From positions 1 through 24,316 of the forward strand of contig MU624782.1 of the NCBI GenBank assembly GCA_025349905.2: a stretch of 24,316 bases of DNA, in the 5' to 3' direction. Under the pieces are notes generated by a model. That model searched no databases. It saw only the letters and a program-made list of their open reading frames with translations, and was not told the DNA's origin. Origin of the DNA: Blastocladiella britannica (Eukaryota > Blastocladiomycota > Blastocladiomycetes > Blastocladiales > Blastocladiaceae). Positions within the stretch are counted from its first letter, which is position 1. The number at the start of each line of letters is the position of its first letter. Both the position numbers and the translations under genes were made by a program. Of this stretch, positions 8,082 to 23,983 are shown in pieces.

Positions 8082-10378
8082 TTAAAAGGAAGCATCGCCC
8101 CAGTTGCAGAAATCACCGACCGATCCGTAAATGGTCGTGTCGGGCTCCTCGGCGGACGTGTTGAGCAGCCAGTCCGGGAACGAAATGCCATTGTCGACGA
8201 GTGCCAGAGTCGCAATCAGAGTAGTGACGGCCGCGCCGACATCCAGCGCGCACGCCAGCACGTAGTTGTAGCGCTTCCACCAGCCGGTGGCGAAACGGTA
8301 GATGAAGAACTGGAAAATGGTCGCGACCACAAAGCCCGAGAACATGTACGACTGGTTCGAGGCCGGGTTACCCGCCTGGTACAGCAGCGCCGGGTTGATG
8401 AGGCGCCACGGGATGTACGACTCGCCAAAGACGATCTGGCAGCCCTTGAGCACGGCCGGGGTCAGGAAGCCAACAATCAGGCCCGAGATGATGATGGGCG
8501 AGTACACCGAGTCGAAAAAGAACCGCTTGGGACCGACCGCACCCCAGATCAGCGATGCGTTGAAGAAAATGTTGTAGTTGTAGCCGTTCCAGGCGGCACC
8601 GGGACCCGACTGCACCATCTCCTGCACCCAGGTGCGGTGCTGCTCCGACGAGAACCACATGCGCGCCGTCAGCAGCGACATGGCCGCCGCCACCAGCTGC
8701 GCAAAGATTTGTGTGATGTACATGTGGCGCGGGTTGATCTTGAGGTAGTGGCCGAGCTTGAGGTCCTGCAGCAGGATCAGGCACTGCAGCGACACGGTGA
8801 CACCAAGCGTCTTGAACGCCATCATCTGGACGGGGTCGCCGGGCGAAATCAGACCAATGATAAACTCGGAAATCACGTTCATATAGAGCGAGACACCGGA
8901 CGTGGCGAGAATGACGGCGATGGGGATGGTCGACAGGATCGACACGAGCGTGGCCAGGAGCGTGAAATAGAACGGCATCTTCATCTCGGTGACCAGGAAC
9001 ACCGCCGTGGTGAGCACCAGCGTGATCAAAAAGAAGCCGTAGTACCAGGTGTCGGGCACCTCGGGGTAGTTCTTGTCCATGATCTGGCAGTGAATGTCGG
9101 TCTCGTCGGCGTGCGACAGCCCGCGGAAGCGCTGCACAATGTCCTTGCCGTACCAGAAGACGCACTGGCCGACGGCGGCCGAGAACGTGGCCATCGAGCC
9201 CCAGTACGAGAAGGCAAACATGGGCGACATGTACAGCGGCTTGACGGCACTGTAGAGGCTCTCATCCAGCTTGTGGGTGGTGGGGTCCACGAGCGCACCA
9301 GCCGCGACCTTCTTGCCGGTCTGCGCCGAGTACAGCTTGGTGGAGTTGAGCGCGTACTTGATGTTGTCGGGGATGCCGAACCAGTTGTTCTTCCACGCCA
9401 GCGGCGTCAGAATCCACATGAAGATCACGTACGACATGAACACGTTGCACGCGGCCCAGTAGGGCGACGACATGTTGAGGCCGCCGCTGACGGTCCAGTC
9501 GAGAGACAGCGAGAGCATGCCGACACCCGACTTGGGGGACCCGAGCTGCTGCAGGACGGTGGCCGAGTTGGGGGAGAGCAGGCACAGAAGCGGCACGTAA
9601 GCGAGCTGTCCAGCAACGAATCCGGGGAGCCACTGCCAGCAGAACATGCCGACGAAACCGATAAAGAACATGGCCATGCCGGAAATGTGCTTCTTGCCGT
9701 CGTCCTGGGTGGCCTCGGTCTTGACCGAGTGGAACGACGTGTACATGGCCACCTGCGGAAGGACACCGGGCCAGACCATGTGCGACGGGCGAATGAGGAA
9801 CTTGCGGCAGACACCGGCGATACCGAAACCGAGCACCGACGAGCCAATCAGGAAGATGAGGCCCCAGAACCATCCAATGTCGAAGCCGTAGAACAGTTCC
9901 TGGACAATCAGGTTATCGATACCGTAGACGCCCGCAGCGCCGGTCGAGGCCCAGATGCCGATGAGCGCGTGCTCCTTGATCGAGAACGGTCCCGGGTTGA
10001 GGTTGATCCCGGCAATGCTAGTGCTGGGCAGAACCTTGGCGAGGAACTGGCCCATCGGGTACGCAAACATGATCGCAATGTACGCGGTGATGCTTTTTTC
10101 ATTTTTTCATTTTTATCAGTTTTTTGTTGACTCGTCAAAAAAAAGGATGGAGCGTACGCAAAGGGGTTACCACGGATCGAAAAGAGGGTATTGATGAACG
10201 AGAGGACGCAGTTAAAGATGAGGCCGAGGACGATCACACGGAACGTGAGCGACGGGGTCGAGGGATCGTCGGAGCGGGGCACGAGCTCCTGCACGATCTG
10301 CTCGAAATCGTTGTCGATCACAAAGGACGACTCTTCCTTGTTTTCGCCAAGGGCAGTGGGGTTTTCTTTTTCAGTCAT
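8082..10378 (-). CDS. OPT-family oligopeptide transporter
   Basis: Exons 10378-10158 and 10092-8082 give 743 residues, the usual size for the family. It is a proton-coupled plasma-membrane importer of small peptides (or glutathione/metal chelates). After an acidic cytosolic N-terminus, RGNPFA begins the membrane part. Family hallmarks follow: NLNPGPFSIKEH, LSLSLDW, and the pair EFIIGLISPGDP with FKTLGVT. After these come DLKLGHYLKINPRHMY and a final hydrophobic half ending CNWGD. About 14-16 membrane segments can be counted. The single intron (10093-10157) has donor GTACGC and an acceptor AAAAAG; splicing joins NPFA to ITAYIAIMFAYP, which fits the family. It is divergent from CSN4 across a 630-bp region. 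Peptide use would suit a saprotrophic or parasitic lifestyle. Confidence 0.93.
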
Positions 10379-10796: not shown

Positions 10797-11008
10797 ATTG
10801 ACTACCTGGCTGGCGGATTATGGCTGCTAGGCTGGCGGAATCTAGGTCATGCTCATGCGGCGATGTTTTAAAAATGGGAAGTGGTGAATGGGAAAGAGGA
10901 CACAAATCCCAAAAAAATTGTGTTTGCGCAAGGCCTTTGTTGCATCGTTTTGACAGCCTCCTCTCCCTTTTTTTGTCGCATCGACTCTTCAACAAAATTT
11001 CAAAAAAT

Positions 11009-12377
11009 ATGGCCACCATCACCGCCGATCTGGCCCAACTGCAGTCGCCCGCGGTGCGCGACAAACTGCCCGGTTTTCGAGCCTTGATTGCCGCCCTGTA
11101 CCCTGCCACCGCTTCAGCCAGCCCCCACCCAACATCTGCCGTGGTGGCCAATACCGAGGCATTGGTCGCGGCGCTTCTGAGCGAGTCAACGGGCCTGGTA
11201 GCCGCGCGCCCACTGGTCTCTGACTTGCTGGCGGCCGTAGACGCGTGGCCGGGGGTCACGGGCGAGCCCGACGACTCGACCAAGGGCGGCGTGTATGCGG
11301 TCATCATTCAGGGCCTGGAGCCGCGGCTGGTGTCGTTCGAGGAGCCCGTGGCGCACGCGCGCGAAAAACTGGCGGCCGTGCAAGAGAGCGGCGAGCAGTG
11401 GACGGCGGCCGCGCGCACGCTGATTGGCATCAAGCTCGACAGTGGGCACCGGGCCGTCCCGGACACCGAGGCGCTGCGAATCCTGATTCACATTGTGCGA
11501 CTGTTCCTCGAGGACGAGGATCCGGTCAGCGCCGACATTTACCTCAAGCGGGCAGGCACACTGCTGATGCCGCACCACGACCCGGTGCTGCAGATCACGT
11601 ACAAGCTGTGCGGCGCCCGCATCCTCGACGCTCAGCGCGCCTTCATGCCCGCCGCACACAAGTTTCTCGAGCTGTCGTACTCGGCCGTCATTGACCCGGA
11701 AGAAAAGCGCGAGTACCTCATCAAATCCGTCACGTCCGCGGTGCTGGCGGGTGCGGGACCCAACCGGTCGCGGCTACTTGCGTCGCTCGCCAAGGACGAG
11801 CGGATCGCAGAGCTGCCTCGGTGCTATGGGTCGGTCCTGGAGAAGATGCACTTGGGCCGCATTCTCCGCAAGCACGAGGTGGAGGAGTTCGTGGCCACCC
11901 TTGAGGGCCACCATTTGGCCAAGCTTGCTGACGGTACTCTCTATTTTTTTTTCTAAATTTTTTTTTTTTGGAGCGACTGACTCGATTGAATCAAATACAA
12001 CAGGAACCTCGGTGTTTGACCGGGCGGTGATCCAGCACAACCTGCTCGCGGCGTCGCTCATCTACGCCAACATTTCGTTTGCCGAACTGGGCCGTCTGCT
12101 GGGCATTTCGGGCGAGGACGCCGAAAAGCTGGCAGCGTCCATGATTGGCGAGCACCGGATCAAGGGCCGCATCGACCAGCTGCAAGGGTTCGTGTACTTT
12201 GAGCCGGCCGAGGGACACGCTGCCGGCGGGGGCGGTGCCGCGGGGATCTTGTCGAGCTGGGACGCGCGAGTGGCCACACTGTGTGCGCGCGTGGACGATC
12301 TGGCGGGAGTCATTACTGAGACTGCGGCGGCATCTGCGGCTGCTGCTGCTGGTCCGGATGCCATGCAGGTGGCGTGA
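11009..12377 (+). CDS. CSN4: COP9 signalosome complex subunit 4
   Basis: Exons 11009-11933 and 12004-12377 give 432 residues (human CSN4 has 406). It is a PCI-domain subunit of the signalosome, which removes NEDD8/Rub1 from cullins. The N-terminal two thirds is helical repeat sequence with DIYLKRAG and the long helix around KREYLIKSV. The PCI winged helix follows: VFDRAVIQHNLLAAS, then ISFAELGRLLGIS, then MIGEHRIKGRIDQLQGFVYFE. That run is very close to animal and plant CSN4. The intron (GTACTC...ACAG, 70 nt) falls inside the TSVFDRAV region and contains a GACTGAC branch-like motif. The C-terminal end is Ala-rich and ends MQVA. It is functionally linked to RBX1 through cullins. Its stop lies 32 bp from the stop of the convergent next gene. 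Confidence 0.93.
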
Positions 12378-15517: not shown

Positions 15518-18500
15518 TCAACACACATCCATCTCGTCCTCGACGTCCTCAATAAGATCCTCCTCATCCTCACCCTCATCATCAGCATGCATGCCCTGAC
15601 CCGCCGGCACCGCCATAACCTCCTTGATCAGGTCAGGCAGGTACGGGTGGTGCCGGACGCGGGCATTGACGTCGATGAATTCGGCGACCTTCAGCTCGAA
15701 CCGTGCCACCGCGTCCTTATCGGGCACAGCGGCGCCGCGAGCGATTCCGACCGACGACGGCCCACATGCATGGTCGAACGCGGCGCGCACGTCGGCCGCC
15801 AAGTCCGGCACGCCCGTCACGTCCGAGACATGCAGCGTCACGTCGGACGCGGCCACCACCAGCGCCGCGGGGGCTCCGCCCATAGCCCCAATGGTCGCAC
15901 GCACCACGGCCTCGGTTTCGTTGGGCGGGACCACTGCCGCAGCGCGTTCGGCGAGCTTGGCCCAGGCTGCTGGCGCCGCGTCGGCGGGGATCACGCCGTC
16001 GTCGATCCCGGCCCGGACGGCCGCCGCCAGAGATGGGAGCGAGCGGAAGGGTGCCGCCGACACCAGCCAGGAGAGCGGCAGACGCATGCCGCGGCGCACC
16101 GCGTCCACCACGTACCCAGGGACGAGCGGGTCGACACTAGTGCTAGACACTGACCCACCGCGCGAATTCGACCCAGTAGTGGTGCGAGGGGTCGCCGAAA
16201 TGAACTCGACCTGCAACGCCGCCAAAGACGAATGGTACCGTGCAGCCGCCATCGCCGCGCGTGCGTCGTGCGCATTCAGGGTCCCCGTGGCCGCCGCCAC
16301 CGTGGTCGTCAGCAATCCCGCGGCCATGCGGACCGTGGCAACGTGCCGGGCGCCCGTCTTGAGGTACGCCAGCAGCGGCGGCACCGCGGCCGCGTGGTTG
16401 CCCTCGGACATGTAGAACGCGGCCTTGACGGCAGGGGGCACGGACGGGCCGGACGCGCGGGTGCCGGCCTCGTGGATCCAGGCGGCAAACACGTGCGGGA
16501 CTTCGGCCGCCAGGGCCAGCAGAGCTGCGAGCGCGCCGTCGGCGGCCAGGGCGCCAATGTAAGCACTGGCAAATGGGCCAATGGGAGCAAACGAGGCTGC
16601 CCGGTTGGGGCTGGTCCCAGCCTCCAGCAAAATACGCGCGACCGCGGTGCCCATGGTATCGCCCAGCAGACCCCCGCGGGCCATCACGCGAGCCTCCAGC
16701 GCCACGTGCGCTCCCGACGGCGCGTCGGCGCGCGACGCCAGATCGAGCGCCAGCCCCGCATTGAGCGGCACAATGCCGTCCACCGCCGACTCCCACCGCG
16801 CAATCGAGACCGGGTTACCATCAATCAAGGGCCGGGCCAGATGTAGCACGTGCGCGAGCGCGGGGAGCACTGCCGCAACTGCGGTGCGCGCGGTACGGTC
16901 GCCTTGCAGCGCCTCTTGCGCCGCGGTGGCCGCCAGATCGCCCATCAGAGCCGGGTCTTCCAGGCTGTATCCGAGGGCAAACGCGCGGGCCGAGTGCGAG
17001 AGTGGCTGGGGGCGGACATTATCATTGCGCGTGTCCATTCGGTCCTCATCGTCATCATCACTGCCGTCGCGCGACTGCTGAGCGGCAGCATCGTCTGCGG
17101 CCTGTACGCGCCGGCGCTCCACCATCAGCGTCTCCAGGACGGTGGCCATCACCGCCACCCACACGGCGCTGCGGTGCGCGTCGCCGTCGTGGACGGCGTC
17201 GACCATGCGCTTGCACGCCTCGGCGACGGCCCCACGTGCCGATGCCAGTTTGGCCGGTAGTGCCCGGTCGGCAGGGTCGGTGGCGAGCGCGGAAGCAAAG
17301 GTCGCCGGCGTACTGGCAGCCGCCAGCGCCGCCATGGCCGCGTTCCACGCCAGCGCCAGCGCGCGTTCTTCCACACCATGGTCCTTGGCGAGCATGTCGC
17401 ACAAGTGCGCGAGCTGCTCGGCGCGCGCGGCCGGATCGGCTTCGGACCGGGCGAAGAGCTCATCAATCACACCCGCCACCACCGCCAGCGACGGTGTCGG
17501 CGCGCCGCGTGGGACCAAGTACATGGTCGACACTGCCGACTGCAGCAGCGACTGCGCCACGTCACCGAGCGGTATCGTCGGCCGCACCTGCGCCGCGGGC
17601 GTGGCCGGTGCTGCTGCCACTCCAACTCCGCGCTGTGCCTCAGCGGACGACGCAGGGGTGACTGCATCGTAATAGTATGTGCCGCGAGTGCGCTCCACCA
17701 GCGCCATGCCAGCCAGCGGCGACGACGAGCTGGTGACCAATGCCGCATCATCAACATCCCCCAAGTCGCTGGCAATCACTGGAACGCCGGCAATAAACTC
17801 GCGGCGTCCCTCGCCCCACAGGTACACGCGGCCTGAAGCCGCCGACTGGTCGCCACCCAGGACCTGCACGCCGGCGCGCGCGCACACAATGGCCCCATCC
17901 AACTCGGACCGGTGTGCCATGGCCGCACGCACCACACGACCGGCCCGCTGGTCCACGGCCCGCACATCGAGCGCCCCCGGCTGCTTGGACCACGGATCGC
18001 CCACCAAGACCAGCGCACAGGTCGATTCGGCAGCTAGTTTCTTGGTGCGAGACGACGACGACGACGACGGGGTATGCGCGACAATCACTGCCACGCGCAC
18101 CGGCACACCAGCGGTGACGGCATCGGTAATTCCGACGACATGGCCACCCCCGGCGGCGGGGAGACGTGCCAGGGCAGCGGCGGCCACGTTGGCGCCCGAG
18201 ACGTGCGTGAGGGCCAGGGGTGCTGCCGAGGAAGCGGACGAGGAGCCCATGGTCCACAGCTCCAGCGCCGACTCGGTCAGCACCAGCACGGCATTTCCGG
18301 CATCAGCCGAGGCCGCGGCCAAAATGCGTGGGCCGGTGGCAGCGGTGGAAAACAGGGCGCGCCGAAGCCATGCTGCCGCACCCAAGGCCGGAGCTGGGAG
18401 TTCAGTCCACAGCGACGGGGACGAATGTGACGAGGTGCGGCCGCTGCTCGAGGGCGATGACGACATGGACGACGACAAGGACAACAGATCGGCTGTGACG

Positions 18501-19249
18501 CGCAGCACAAAGCGGCGACGGCGGGTAATGAGCACCACTGTGACGCGCGCAATAGCCATCAACGCAACCACCGCGTCCTCCTTGCGGTGACCATCTTCGA
18601 CATCGTCGTCGGCATCCTCATCGTCGGTATCCATTGCCGAGTCGGCGTCAGCGGGAACGATCGGCACCAGTGTCGGCGATCCGGCCGGAGGGACCAACAG
18701 CGCCAGGCCGGCATCGGGAGTGACCAGGACCGTGACGGCCACATTTCCGTGCGTGAGCGATGCAATGGCCAGGTGCGGGGCACGTCCATGACCGCTACTT
18801 CCGCCCTGGCAGCGGGCGGCAAAGGCTGGCGGGAAGACTACGGTGGAGGAAGACGAGGCGGTGGTTCCCGATGCAGCTGTTGCGGTGGCCAGTACCAGGT
18901 GCGTGGGAGACGCGTAGGCGGTGGTGCCGGAGACGGGATCGGTCGCGGCGCGGACTGGGCCTGTTTTTAATATGTTGTCAGTCGGATTGCACTCGAGTTA
19001 TATGTGCATATACCTACCTTGAAGCAAGGCCACGGCGGGCGGTGCGGCGTGTCGGCGACGCACAAACGGGTTGAGGTCGTCGGCCGAGGGGCCAGGAGAA
19101 GTTGAGGGCTTGGCCGCGGTAGAAATTGGCTTGGTTGTCGAAGAAGAGGACATGTCCATGCGATCGGGCGAGGTGGCCGCCGCGGCGACAGCATGACCGC
19201 GAGCGCGCGGGGACGCGATCATGGGCGACGTGGAGCCGGCCTGGAGCAT
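15518..19249 (-). CDS. NUP133: Probable nucleoporin Nup133
   Basis: Exons 19249-19018 and 18960-15518 give 1224 residues. Architecture fits Nup133 of the Y-complex scaffold of the nuclear pore. A disordered N-terminus (about 60 residues, Ser/Thr/Pro-rich) precedes a beta-propeller-like half of repeated hydrophobic strands (VAVTVLVTPD, VLVLTESALELWTMG, VRVAVIVAH), then a long all-helical half. Specific resemblance includes VIDELFARSEAD, like the VVDELF segment at the propeller/helix transition. C-terminal FELKVAEFIDVN...YLPDLIKEV resembles the end of vertebrate Nup133. Three acidic or Ser-rich loops interrupt the fold. The family call rests on weak similarity and overall layout; Nup155-like or another propeller-solenoid protein cannot be excluded. 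Its stop lies 24 bp from the HEI10 stop, tail to tail. Confidence 0.6.
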
Positions 19250-20473: not shown

Positions 20474-21684
20474 CTACATGAGGTCGTCCAGATTCACTGC
20501 TAGGCCGTCAAACCCGTCACGAGCGACCTTTCGACCAGCAACGCCGACCGCCATGCGTAGCACACGCGCCAAACGTAGCCGCTGGTTGTCTACCGCCGTC
20601 GCACTGGTGGTGGCGTCCGGCGTCATGACGTGCAGCAGAGCCGCGATCGCGCCGGCATTGAACGCATCCCCGGCCCCGATCGTGTCCACCACGTCCACGG
20701 CCAGGGCTGGCTCGTAGGCACTCATCAACCGTGTTTGTCCCGAGTCGGTGCGCGTCCTTTGCACCGCCACGGCGCCGAGTGAGCCCATGGGCATGAATGC
20801 AACGGCCCTTTTTAGTTTCATTTTTGGTCAGTTTTGGTTGGATCCGTCAGCATTAAGGAAAGCGTACCCAGGACAGAGCTTGGGCAGCAGCCATGACCGC
20901 GCCCAGTCAAGCGACAATCGTGCTTCCAGTGGCCAGGACGACGTGTCATCCACCACGGATGGATCCAAATGGGCATGATCGTGTGATTCCGGGAGAAGAG
21001 GACGGCGACCATGCGCTACAGCGTACTCGCGGCTCACGACCACCATATCCGCCAGCGGGATCAGCGAATCGAGTCCGGGCCGGTTGGGCCGCTCCAACTC
21101 CACCGAGATGCGAACTGTCGAGGGCGCCGCATCCCGTACTGAATCGATCATGGTGCGAATGTCGTCCACGTTCGGGCGGCCCTCAAAGTGCACCCATGCG
21201 GCATGGTCCAGGCGCAAATGCTCAGATGATGCGAGGACAGTTCGGAGACCGGCATCGTCCAGCGCCGGCAGCGTCGCGTGATTGACAATAGTGCGCGACT
21301 TTGTGGCGGCCGAGGCGATAATGTACGCGGTCGGGTGTAGGTGGTTTGGGTGGGTGAGTGGCAAGTACGTGAATCCGAGGCGATCGGCGGTAGGGCCGAG
21401 GAGGCTGCAAATGATTGGAGTGAGTGAAAAATGAGTGAATGACAATAAGGTAAGGCGTACTCGTCGCCGCCAGTGCCGGCGGGGGACACGATGGCAACAG
21501 CTGCAGCAGGTGGACTGATCTGCGCCAAGACGCAGGCGGTGTTGAAGGCGTTTCCCCCCGTGCGGCGGTCGACTTTGGTGGCGCGCAGCTTGTCGTCCTC
21601 GGCTGGGAACTCGGGCACGTGCAGCACCAGGTCAATGTAGGCGCCGCCCACGAGCAGTACCAGCGGTCGATGTGGCTGCTGCAT
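20474..21684 (-). CDS. KHK: Ketohexokinase-like PfkB sugar kinase
   Basis: Exons 21684-21461, 21404-20868 and 20807-20474 give 364 residues. It is a PfkB/ribokinase-fold sugar kinase. The N-terminal signature GGNAFNTACVLA (Gly43-Gly44-Asn45) and the ATP-site signature DTIGAGDAFNAG with catalytic Asp301 are intact. Closest resemblance is to ketohexokinase (fructokinase), which makes fructose 1-phosphate: WVHFEGRPN, VRISVELERPNR, DMVVVSREYA and the C-terminal VAGRKVARDGFDGL each line up with animal KHK. Sugar specificity is inference; other PfkB kinases share the ATP site. A family-unusual insert with HDHAHLD lies after the VVVSREYA segment. Introns are 56 and 60 nt, both with GTACGC donors. 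The start is the first ATG; an upstream GTG in frame was not used. It is divergent from the U-box/rhomboid gene (159 bp). Confidence 0.85.
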
Positions 21685-21833
21685 TGCTTCAAGATGTGTG
21701 TCCGTCGTGCGTGTGAATGCTCCTCGAGATGAGAGCTCCCCTCTTGGCACTTTCCCATCGCCCTCTCATTCGTCACCGCACGGCGCAATCATCTCGTCGT
21801 CTTTCCCCCTTTCGACGCATCCCAGGACAACTC

Positions 21834-21841
21834 TATATAAA
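21834..21841 (+). promoter_or_regulatory. TATA-like TATATAAA just before a start codon
   Basis: A perfect TATATAAA ends two bases before the ATG of the U-box/rhomboid gene. A true TATA box here would place initiation inside the coding region, downstream of this ATG, so it is more likely a leader sequence than a promoter. Confidence 0.25.
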
Positions 21842-21843
21842 GA

Positions 21844-23983
21844 ATGGAGGCACAACAACACCAGCAGCAGCAGCGCTACAGCCCGGCACCCGCCCCGGCC
21901 GTGTTCTACTGCTCGCTCACCGGCGCTCCCGCGGCTGACCCGGTCGTTTCCACCACCGGCTACGTTTACGACCGCGCCACCATTCTGCAGTACCTGACTG
22001 CCCACGGCAACACCTGCCCCATGACTGGCAGCTCGCTGACTCCGGCCGACCTGCACGCGCCGTTTGTGCCCGCGCCGTACGTGGCGGCCACTTCCCCCGC
22101 CGACGCATCGCAGTTCCTGCCCTCGGACCACCACACCACTTCGCCGCTGCAGGCCCAGTACACGGGACAGCTGCAGCCCCAGTACGCTGGCGGCAGCGCC
22201 CTGTCCCCAATGGACATGGCCGGCGTGCGTCCGCTCTCGACGTCCCCCGTGCTGGTGGCGGTGCCCCAAAACGGCTCGGCCTCGCCCTACGCCGACGCTT
22301 CCAGTCCAGGCGGTGGTGCCGGCGCCGACCTCGGCGGCGGGTACGGCGGGCCGCTGCACCGCGTGCCGTCCACTGCGTCTCTGCGGTCCACGCGGCAGTC
22401 GCACCGCAACTCGTTCCACTCGGGCAACCACCGCAACTCGTGGTACGAGTCGACCCCGACCGAGCCCGCGGTGGCGTCAGCCCCGGCGCCCGCCCAGTCG
22501 GTCGCGTACAATGCGGCGCTGGCCGACGACTCGGCCCTCATTGCATCGCTGGCCAACCAGGACGTGCGGTACTCGGCGGCGCTGGCCAACGCCGGTGGGA
22601 TGACATCGCACGACCGGCTGCTGGAGGCTGCCGCGTCCACGTCCATCGCGTACCGTCCGTGGTTCACGATGCTCATGACTGCGCTGCAGGTCGCGGGCCT
22701 GGTGCTGTCGCTCGTCGTCAACGCCCAAGTGACCGGCACCGTCATTCAGACCACGCCGCAGTTCAATTACCTGATTGGCCCGTCATCCGAGGTGCTCATT
22801 CAGCTCGGCGCCCGCTTTGCGCCGTGCATGCGCGCCATCGACACGCTGCCAGCGTCGCTAGCCACCAACGTCTCGTGCGTGGTCCCCGGTGGACCCGCCG
22901 ACCCCAACAACCCGGGCTACTACTCGTGCAACTGGGACACGTTCTGTGGTCGGCTGGCGCCCACGCCGCTGACCCCGACGACCCCTCGTGCGCCCAACCA
23001 GTGGTTCCGGTTCGTGCTGCCCCTGTTCCTCCACGGCGGTGTGATCCATTTCGCCATGAACATCATGGTGCAGCTGTCGAGCGTCATGTCGCTGGAGCGC
23101 GACTGGGGATGGTTCCGCGTCGGGCCCGTGTACTTGGTCTCGGGCGTCTTTGGGTTTGTGTTTGGGGCCGCGTTTGGGGCGCCGTTGAGTCCCAGCGTTG
23201 GCTGTTCGGGTGCCTTGTTTGGCATGATTGCGTGCATGTTCGTTTTTTTCCCTTGACTTGTTTCATCCAGCTGTCACTCACGCTTTAAACTGCAGGATCA
23301 TTGACCTCGTCCAGCACTGGCGTATCGTGCATCACCCGACGAATGCTCTTCTCCGCATCCTGTTTGTGGTGGCAGTGACCTTTGGTTTGTTTTTTCTTGT
23401 TATTCCTTATTTATTTGGTCACTAATTGTATCGATCCACAGTCATTGGCTTGTTCCCCGCCATCGACAACTTTGCTCACATTGGGGGGTGCGTTTTCGTC
23501 AACCCCTTCTTGGAAAGCAATCAACTCACTAATAATTCACACCAGATTCATATCGGGCGGCCTCATGGGCCTGGTGGTAATGCCGACCGTGAACCTGTCA
23601 TGCTGCTCAAGCGTGGCACGTAAAGCGGTGCGGTCCCTTGGCCGCAACATGGGCTCCTCGGGCACCCTGGCCGAGGCGGGTGGCGCCAGTGGCAGCAATC
23701 CCAAGAAAATTGGTGGCTCCAAGCGCGGCTTGTTTGGAAACTACTCGGTCATGTCGCTGCTGGTGCGTGTGGCGGCGGTGGTGGCAGTCGGCATTCTGTT
23801 TGCGGCGCTGATCCCGGCATTCTACTCGGGATCCGGCCTGGTCCTGTGCCCGTGGTGCCGCTCGTTGGACTGTGTCTCGGCCTTTGGCACGGTATGTTTT
23901 TCTTTTCTCTTGTCTTTTTTTCGAGCGAAGAATGATCCTGACCCCATCAATTCGATCATGTCCTTTTGCAGTGCTCCTTTTAA
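21844..23983 (+). CDS. Rhomboid protease with N-terminal Prp19-type U-box
   Basis: Exons 21844-23237, 23296-23384, 23442-23487, 23546-23891 and 23972-23983 give 628 residues. Residues 20-75 form a U-box like that of Prp19: FYCSLTGAPAADPVVS, GYVYDR, ILQYL, HGNTCPMTGSSL. U-boxes are RING-like folds without zinc that bind E2 enzymes. A Ser/Gln/Ala-rich linker of about 190 residues with two HRNS motifs follows. The rhomboid domain starts at about residue 269. It has HFAMN (His402, Asn406, oxyanion side), GCSGALFG with nucleophile Ser455, and DNFAHIGG with His507; spacing matches active rhomboids. A last membrane segment and the Cys-rich end CPWCRSLDC are typical of fungal rhomboids. U-box, linker and Ser455 are all in one uninterrupted exon. 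The final exon is short (CSF-stop) and less certain. Confidence 0.88.

Follow-up and report, generated by a model that had tools for sequence, protein, structure and literature searches.

Rhomboid proteins and ubiquitin ligases are known to cooperate in membrane quality control, so far as separate proteins or as subunits of larger complexes. RHBDL4 has a cytoplasmic ubiquitin-interacting motif (UIM), its clients are ubiquitinated partly by gp78, and the fragments are removed in a p97-dependent manner (excerpts of PMC10920636). In Schizosaccharomyces pombe, Rbd2 works with the Dsc ligase and Cdc48 in the cleavage of Sre1 (excerpts of PMC11555709). Here we describe a gene of the fungus Blastocladiella britannica that joins a U-box to a rhomboid domain, located at 21844..23983 on the plus strand of contig MU624782.1 (assembly GCA_025349905.2). 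The analysed window of 24,316 bases is the entire contig, and all features of the fusion gene given below lie on its plus strand. The fusion of both domains in one gene is genuine.

Each of the two families is well known by itself, and domain annotation in databases shows the combination; no published description was found. Our literature searches, which covered most of the papers at the level of their listings, returned no U-box/rhomboid fusion, nor is one described in the accessible portions of PMC2691004, PMC5567314 (including its rhomboid section) and PMC8778642. A preliminary description of this DNA had stated that no such fusion was known. This holds for the papers searched, but not for the databases, in which AMAG_02760 of Allomyces macrogynus (P0005) and the JGI protein P0007 are already listed with both Pfam domains.

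Gene structure and domains of the fusion

The spliced model consists of five exons (21844-23237, 23296-23384, 23442-23487, 23546-23891 and 23972-23983) with the ATG at 21844 and the stop at 23983, and encodes 628 residues. All four introns follow the GT..AG rule, the donor of intron 1 being located at 23238. The product aligns end to end with the Blastocladiella emersonii and Allomyces proteins P0001-P0005, and with P0007 apart from the missing N-terminus of the latter; together with the window protein these are the seven fusions referred to below. Exon 1 (1394 bp) is stop-free and carries the U-box, the linker, the first transmembrane helix (TM1) and the nucleophile Ser455. Mononucleotide shuffles of this exon contained 8.5 stops on average, and in 0 of 500 cases was a shuffled exon stop-free. 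GC content at third codon positions was 0.84 in the U-box segment versus 0.76-0.88 elsewhere in the coding sequence. The preliminary description had placed U-box, linker and nucleophile in one exon of about 1.4 kb and the two domains in one 628-residue gene that is not a wrong join; the five-exon model with its stop-free first exon bears this out. A public B. britannica record, P0121, holds residues of the same gene in partial form (304 residues) and omits the lysine-bearing loop between TM6 and TM7 as well as the last cysteine.

The U-box domain (residues 18-70; 21895..22053) matched PF04564 with 32.8 bits (E 7.8e-8; cut-off 21.4) in the complete protein and with 37.8 bits as an isolated segment. 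In an AlphaFold run on residues 1-89 with the seven-sequence alignment as input, residues 21-70 reached a mean predicted local distance difference test (pLDDT) score of 82-92 per ten-residue block. The predicted fold resembles the U-boxes of Prp19 and CHIP according to Foldseek and VIA, with E4B also among the matches, and together with the profile score this upholds the earlier assignment to the Prp19 type. C23 and C58 are the only cysteines in residues 18-75; the full set of zinc ligands is absent, as is characteristic of a U-box. Four of the seven fusions scored above the PF04564 cut-off, namely the window protein, P0002 (by 0.1 bit), P0005 and P0007. In the seven-protein alignment C58-P59 is invariant, and every fusion that covers position 25 has Leu or Ile there. 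We take Leu25 and the C58-P59 region to be positions at which U-boxes contact the ubiquitin-conjugating enzyme (E2). Prp19 itself is a working ubiquitin ligase (E3), and the U-box of the fusion is predicted to form an E3 ligase arm on the cytosolic side of the membrane. Pfam identified four U-box loci in the B. britannica genome, of which one is the fusion and one the genome's own Prp19 (L005) with the Prp19-specific domain PF08606. L005 was also the best match of the fusion-family U-box profile in this genome (48.6 bits), followed by L007 with 25.6 bits; unlike this gap in the profile scores, the pairwise U-box scores of L007 were close to those of Prp19. A derivation of the fusion's U-box from Prp19 is thus a candidate reading, to which the profile scores lend more weight than the pairwise ones.

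The rhomboid domain was recognized by PF01694 at residues 385-520 (E 8.5e-27). Spliced translation and alignment place the HxxxN motif H402FAMN406 at 23047..23061, the GCSG motif with the predicted nucleophile Ser455 at 23200..23211 and the predicted catalytic His507 at 23477..23479, the positions reported in the preliminary description. None of the seven fusions departs from Ser455, His507 and HxxxN, so that the loss of the dyad that marks the pseudoproteases Dsc2, UBAC2 and the derlins is not seen here. A structural model of the B. emersonii protein contains the helices of a six-TM rhomboid core. Its structural matches included GlpG with a root-mean-square deviation of 3.6-4.5 Å among the matches listed, and iRhom with 11-14 Å over long alignments. 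Judged by these residues, the rhomboid half is an active-looking protease with its active-site residues intact.

Distribution and origin of the fusion

The same order of U-box and rhomboid, for which a search of relatives had been proposed, occurs in P0001 (B. emersonii), P0002 and P0004 (A. macrogynus), P0003 (A. javanicus), P0005 and P0007, a JGI protein with a partial U-box. P0002-P0004 are near-copies, and the independent witnesses are the two Blastocladiella species, two Allomyces paralogue types and P0007. A family profile built from six of these U-boxes recovered exactly the seven fusions among 142 sequences, the next match having an E value of 0.39; it found no U-box in the 135 non-fusion sequences retrieved. 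Identities of the window protein for U-box, linker and rhomboid core were 63%, 32% and 63% to B. emersonii, 41-45%, 23-26% and 55-57% to Allomyces, and 30%, 25% and 56% to P0007, where linker values (23-32% across the other fusions) refer to window residues 76-215. Conservation of the U-box thus exceeds that of the linker, by a clear margin in the named species and by a bare one in P0007.

In a tree of 55 rhomboid cores the seven fusions and the Catenaria protein P0006 formed one clade (100/100). The simplest reading is a single gain in the sampled Blastocladiomycota, Catenaria having either lost the U-box or been given a truncated model; it is compatible with a position of Catenaria inside or beside the fusions. 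Two further rhomboid loci of the B. britannica genome (L002 and L003, found with Pfam) had no U-box in the fetched flanks; the assembly comprises 15.3 Mb in 624 contigs and may be incomplete. A protein search with the U-box region returned nothing at E <= 1 and missed even P0001-P0005, because so short a domain cannot reach a sufficient score among 5.8 billion sequences. The search with the family alignment, with 34 matches, added P0121 and no further protein with a U-box annotation. For rhomboid relatives, 120 of 270 matches were listed, and the homologue searches reach relatives of this rhomboid clade only, so that further U-box/rhomboid fusions may exist. Two rhomboids of the same clade, P0028 (Blyttiomyces) and P0078 (Penicilliopsis), carry extra annotated domains and are possibly joined gene models; the additional Pfam accessions are presumably ankyrin repeats and, for PF01529, a DHHC domain.

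The lysine-free arm and the proposed mode of action

The window protein contains four lysines in 628 residues, all of them between K536 and K569 in the TM6-TM7 loop, and none in residues 1-271 (21844-22656). Ahead of TM1, lysine is absent from 266 residues of the window protein and from 330 of B. emersonii P0001, and P0002-P0004 have 1, 1 and 2 in 351-361 residues. Arginines are retained in this part of the fusions (10-13; 10-12 in the two Blastocladiella). For comparison, the 142 sequences were filtered by core score, match start and length to 109, with P0121 excluded. Among the non-fusion relatives with at least 100 residues ahead of TM1, 0 of 102 were lysine-free, and the median lysine content was 3.0%. 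A rank test of pre-TM1 lysine content between fusions and others gave p 2.7e-5, although the fusions represent one clade. Lysine deserts in disordered parts of the E3s San1 and Slx5/8 have been reported to prevent self-ubiquitination (excerpts of PMC10169902). By analogy, the lysine-free arm fits an E3 that is shielded from self-tagging. If functional, such a desert would favour a live ligase and disfavour self-limitation through tagging of the arm.

Between U-box and membrane lies a linker (residues 76-222; 22069..22509) that is rich in Ala, Ser, Pro and Gly and free of lysine. Its counterpart in the B. emersonii model has pLDDT values of about 30-43, and the linker is predicted to be disordered. 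It is followed by the motif D..L...L..Q..RY..AL (residues 229-247; 22528..22584) in a predicted helix. With a pattern derived from the same seven fusions, it was matched in all seven of them and in none of the 135 other sequences. The B. emersonii model has helices at 282-305 and 307-314 (pLDDT about 50-62) in this region. The conserved segment may be a docking or gating element. Hydropathy places TM1 at residues 272-294 (22657..22725), in agreement with the start of P0121, and TM7 at residues 577-600 (23745..23816), in agreement with helix 666-692 of the B. emersonii model; the layout is of the 6+1 type. The four lysines lie in a segment of the TM6-TM7 loop at 23622..23723; the loop contains 4 K, 4 R and 1 acidic residue. 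The tail (23847..23974, split by intron 4 at 23892-23971) contains C611, C614, C619 and C626, all four invariant in the seven-protein alignment. From charges and cysteines, a cytosolic location is predicted for the N-terminus and the TM6-TM7 loop, and a lumenal one for the conserved cysteines of loop 1 (328, 345, 362 and 368) and of the tail. RHBDL4-type rhomboids have a C-terminal VCP-binding motif; in the fusion protein the tail after TM7 is short and cysteine-rich. No UIM was among the Pfam matches of the fusion protein, although short motifs can escape detection.

With a probability of about 0.45, we favour the reading that one protein, combining a predicted U-box ligase with a rhomboid whose active-site residues are intact, both cuts membrane clients and ubiquitinates them on their cytosolic face. 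Within the secretory pathway, the rhomboid half would pick out membrane proteins that are unstable or regulated and cleave them. The U-box, loaded by an E2 and tethered through its long flexible arm, would ubiquitinate the client's cytosolic stub in cis, and the tagged stub could then be removed by Cdc48 and the proteasome. Self-tagging of the ligase would be prevented by the lack of lysine in its arm, in the way reported for San1 and Slx5/8. More tentatively, the protein may be a single-chain clip-and-tag degradase that was fused once in the stem of the Blastocladiomycota, in which the lysine-free tether leaves only the protease-held client to be marked and cleavage is coupled to proteasomal removal without an adaptor complex. 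This proposal builds on the precedents of RHBDL4/gp78 and Rbd2/Dsc as separate proteins. With separate proteins it is difficult to establish whether the same client molecule is both cut and tagged, and in what sequence; a single two-headed chain would make this testable and could offer a natural blueprint for inducing the degradation of membrane proteins.

A number of observations weigh against the favoured reading. P0121 begins at TM1 (residue 272) without the U-box. A TATATAA sequence at 21834-21840 ends three bases upstream of the predicted ATG; if it served as the working TATA box, transcription might begin within the U-box, with residue 60 as the next in-frame Met. The Catenaria model P0006, with nearly no sequence ahead of TM1, lacks a U-box, and the best tree nests it among the fusions, although this nesting is not firm, as a constraint grouping the seven fusions without Catenaria was not rejected (p-AU 0.159 for the approximately unbiased test). 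PF04564 stayed below its cut-off in P0001, P0003 and P0004, some RING and TRAF domains also matched the U-box model (Foldseek, VIA), and the U-box identity of P0007 is near its linker value. Ahead of TM1, P0005 and P0007 have 3 and 4 lysines. The fusions are also lysine-poor after TM1 (median 2.25% versus 3.14%, p 0.003), one of five other frames in the window has a lysine-free run of 261 residues, and the GC-rich base composition could also account for the lysine poverty, at least in part. A crude pattern scan revealed no Cdc48-binding motif in the fusion protein, but such short motifs can escape it.

The TATATAA sequence and the start of both the P0121 and the Catenaria models at TM1 would be explained if the true transcript began after the U-box and the rhomboid part alone were made. 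Such an artefact of the gene model is very improbable given that an uninterrupted reading frame within one exon links the U-box to the rhomboid nucleophile, that the U-box is better conserved than the linker in the named species, and that it opens separately annotated proteins of two genera as well as, in part, the JGI protein P0007. Alternatively, the U-box could be a Prp19-like interaction or dimerisation module with little ligase activity that clusters or positions the protease. We consider this doubtful, because the presumed E2-contact positions are kept (C58-P59 invariant, Leu or Ile at position 25) and the arm's shortage of lysine is consistent with its being exposed to an active ligase. 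If instead the U-box ligase acted on partners that have nothing to do with proteolysis, the rhomboid would be an anchor or client sensor in the manner of Dsc2, a rhomboid pseudoprotease that its ligase complex requires to detect clients (excerpts of PMC11555709); this is unlikely in view of Ser455, His507 and HxxxN being invariant in 7/7 fusions, which a pure anchor would not need. The preliminary description had also considered that the protein ubiquitinates itself. A U-box that sets the level of its own protease in this way would find targets in the predicted cytosolic TM6-TM7 loop, where all four lysines of the window protein and lysines of other fusions are located. The cytosolic arm, however, has no lysine in either Blastocladiella and hardly any in P0002-P0004, and lysine deserts of E3s are reported, in the excerpts cited above, to prevent self-tagging, which makes self-limitation quite unlikely.

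Neighbouring features and comparison with known systems

A pattern of the type [DE]..hA..h was searched for upstream of TM1 in the 118 of 142 sequences with enough sequence there. It occurred in 22 of these relatives versus 2.7 expected by shuffling, the sequences not being independent. Among 21 matches listed, 16 were DEALARRL-like, mainly from chytrids and Glomeromycotina, and four Allomyces matches were in another register. DEALARRL-like segments ahead of TM1 were noted in P0009, P0011, P0014, P0016, P0018, P0020-P0022, P0025 and P0049 (chytrids, Glomeromycotina and one other). They resemble what we take to be the consensus of the motif interacting with ubiquitin (MIU), for which no supporting paper was found. 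An MIU-like ubiquitin-binding helix is not claimed for the fusions, since six of the seven lack Ala at that place.

Upstream of the fusion gene, a divergent PfkB-type carbohydrate kinase gene is encoded on the minus strand (20477-21765), with PF00294 matching in two frames, one of them above the cut-off. Its likely ATG, read by eye, is at 21684; as the two start codons are about 160 bp apart, both genes likely share a promoter region. Pfam further identified RRS1, a ribosome-biogenesis protein (657-1592, plus), an OPT oligopeptide transporter (8085-10106, minus) and a PSMD12/CSN4 N-terminal domain (10802-11953, plus). An open frame of 1159 residues without a Pfam match (15521-18997, minus) carries the lysine-free run of 261 residues mentioned above.

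Prp19 (L005) and CHIP/E4B share the U-box fold and sequence with the fusion, and L005 has PF08606 where the fusion has the rhomboid. Prp19, CHIP and E4B are not known to be membrane proteins, and San1 and Slx5/8 are ligases not known to carry a protease. San1 and Slx5/8 likewise have a long, disordered, lysine-free region in the ligase (excerpts of PMC10169902); within the fusions the desert is weaker in P0005 and P0007. On the rhomboid side, fungi have a ROM-1-like subfamily (excerpts of PMC5567314), to which most of P0008-P0120 from chytrids, Glomeromycotina, Mortierellomycotina and Ascomycota probably belong. Among the matches listed, these ROM-1-type rhomboids are 32-46% identical to the window protein over 67-100% of residues 250-625. 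The loop-1 cysteines are invariant and the tail cysteines nearly so in 26 aligned sequences. In contrast to the Blastocladiella fusions, the relatives retrieved had no detectable U-box and contained lysine ahead of TM1 in 102 of 102 cases tested. The Dsc/Rbd2 system of S. pombe also combines a fungal ligase, a rhomboid fold and Cdc48, at the Golgi, and its Dsc2 carries a ubiquitin-associated (UBA) domain (excerpts of PMC11555709). Unlike the single-chain fusion, it is a multi-subunit complex with the RING ligase Tul1/Dsc1, a Dsc2 without catalytic dyad and Rbd2 as a separate protease. In the RHBDL4 (RHBDD1)/gp78/p97 system an active rhomboid is likewise tied to ubiquitin, as far as the excerpts cited above describe it. 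There, however, the ligase is a separate protein, whereas the fusion has an N-terminal U-box in the same chain and a rhomboid core with TM7 and a long loop 1.
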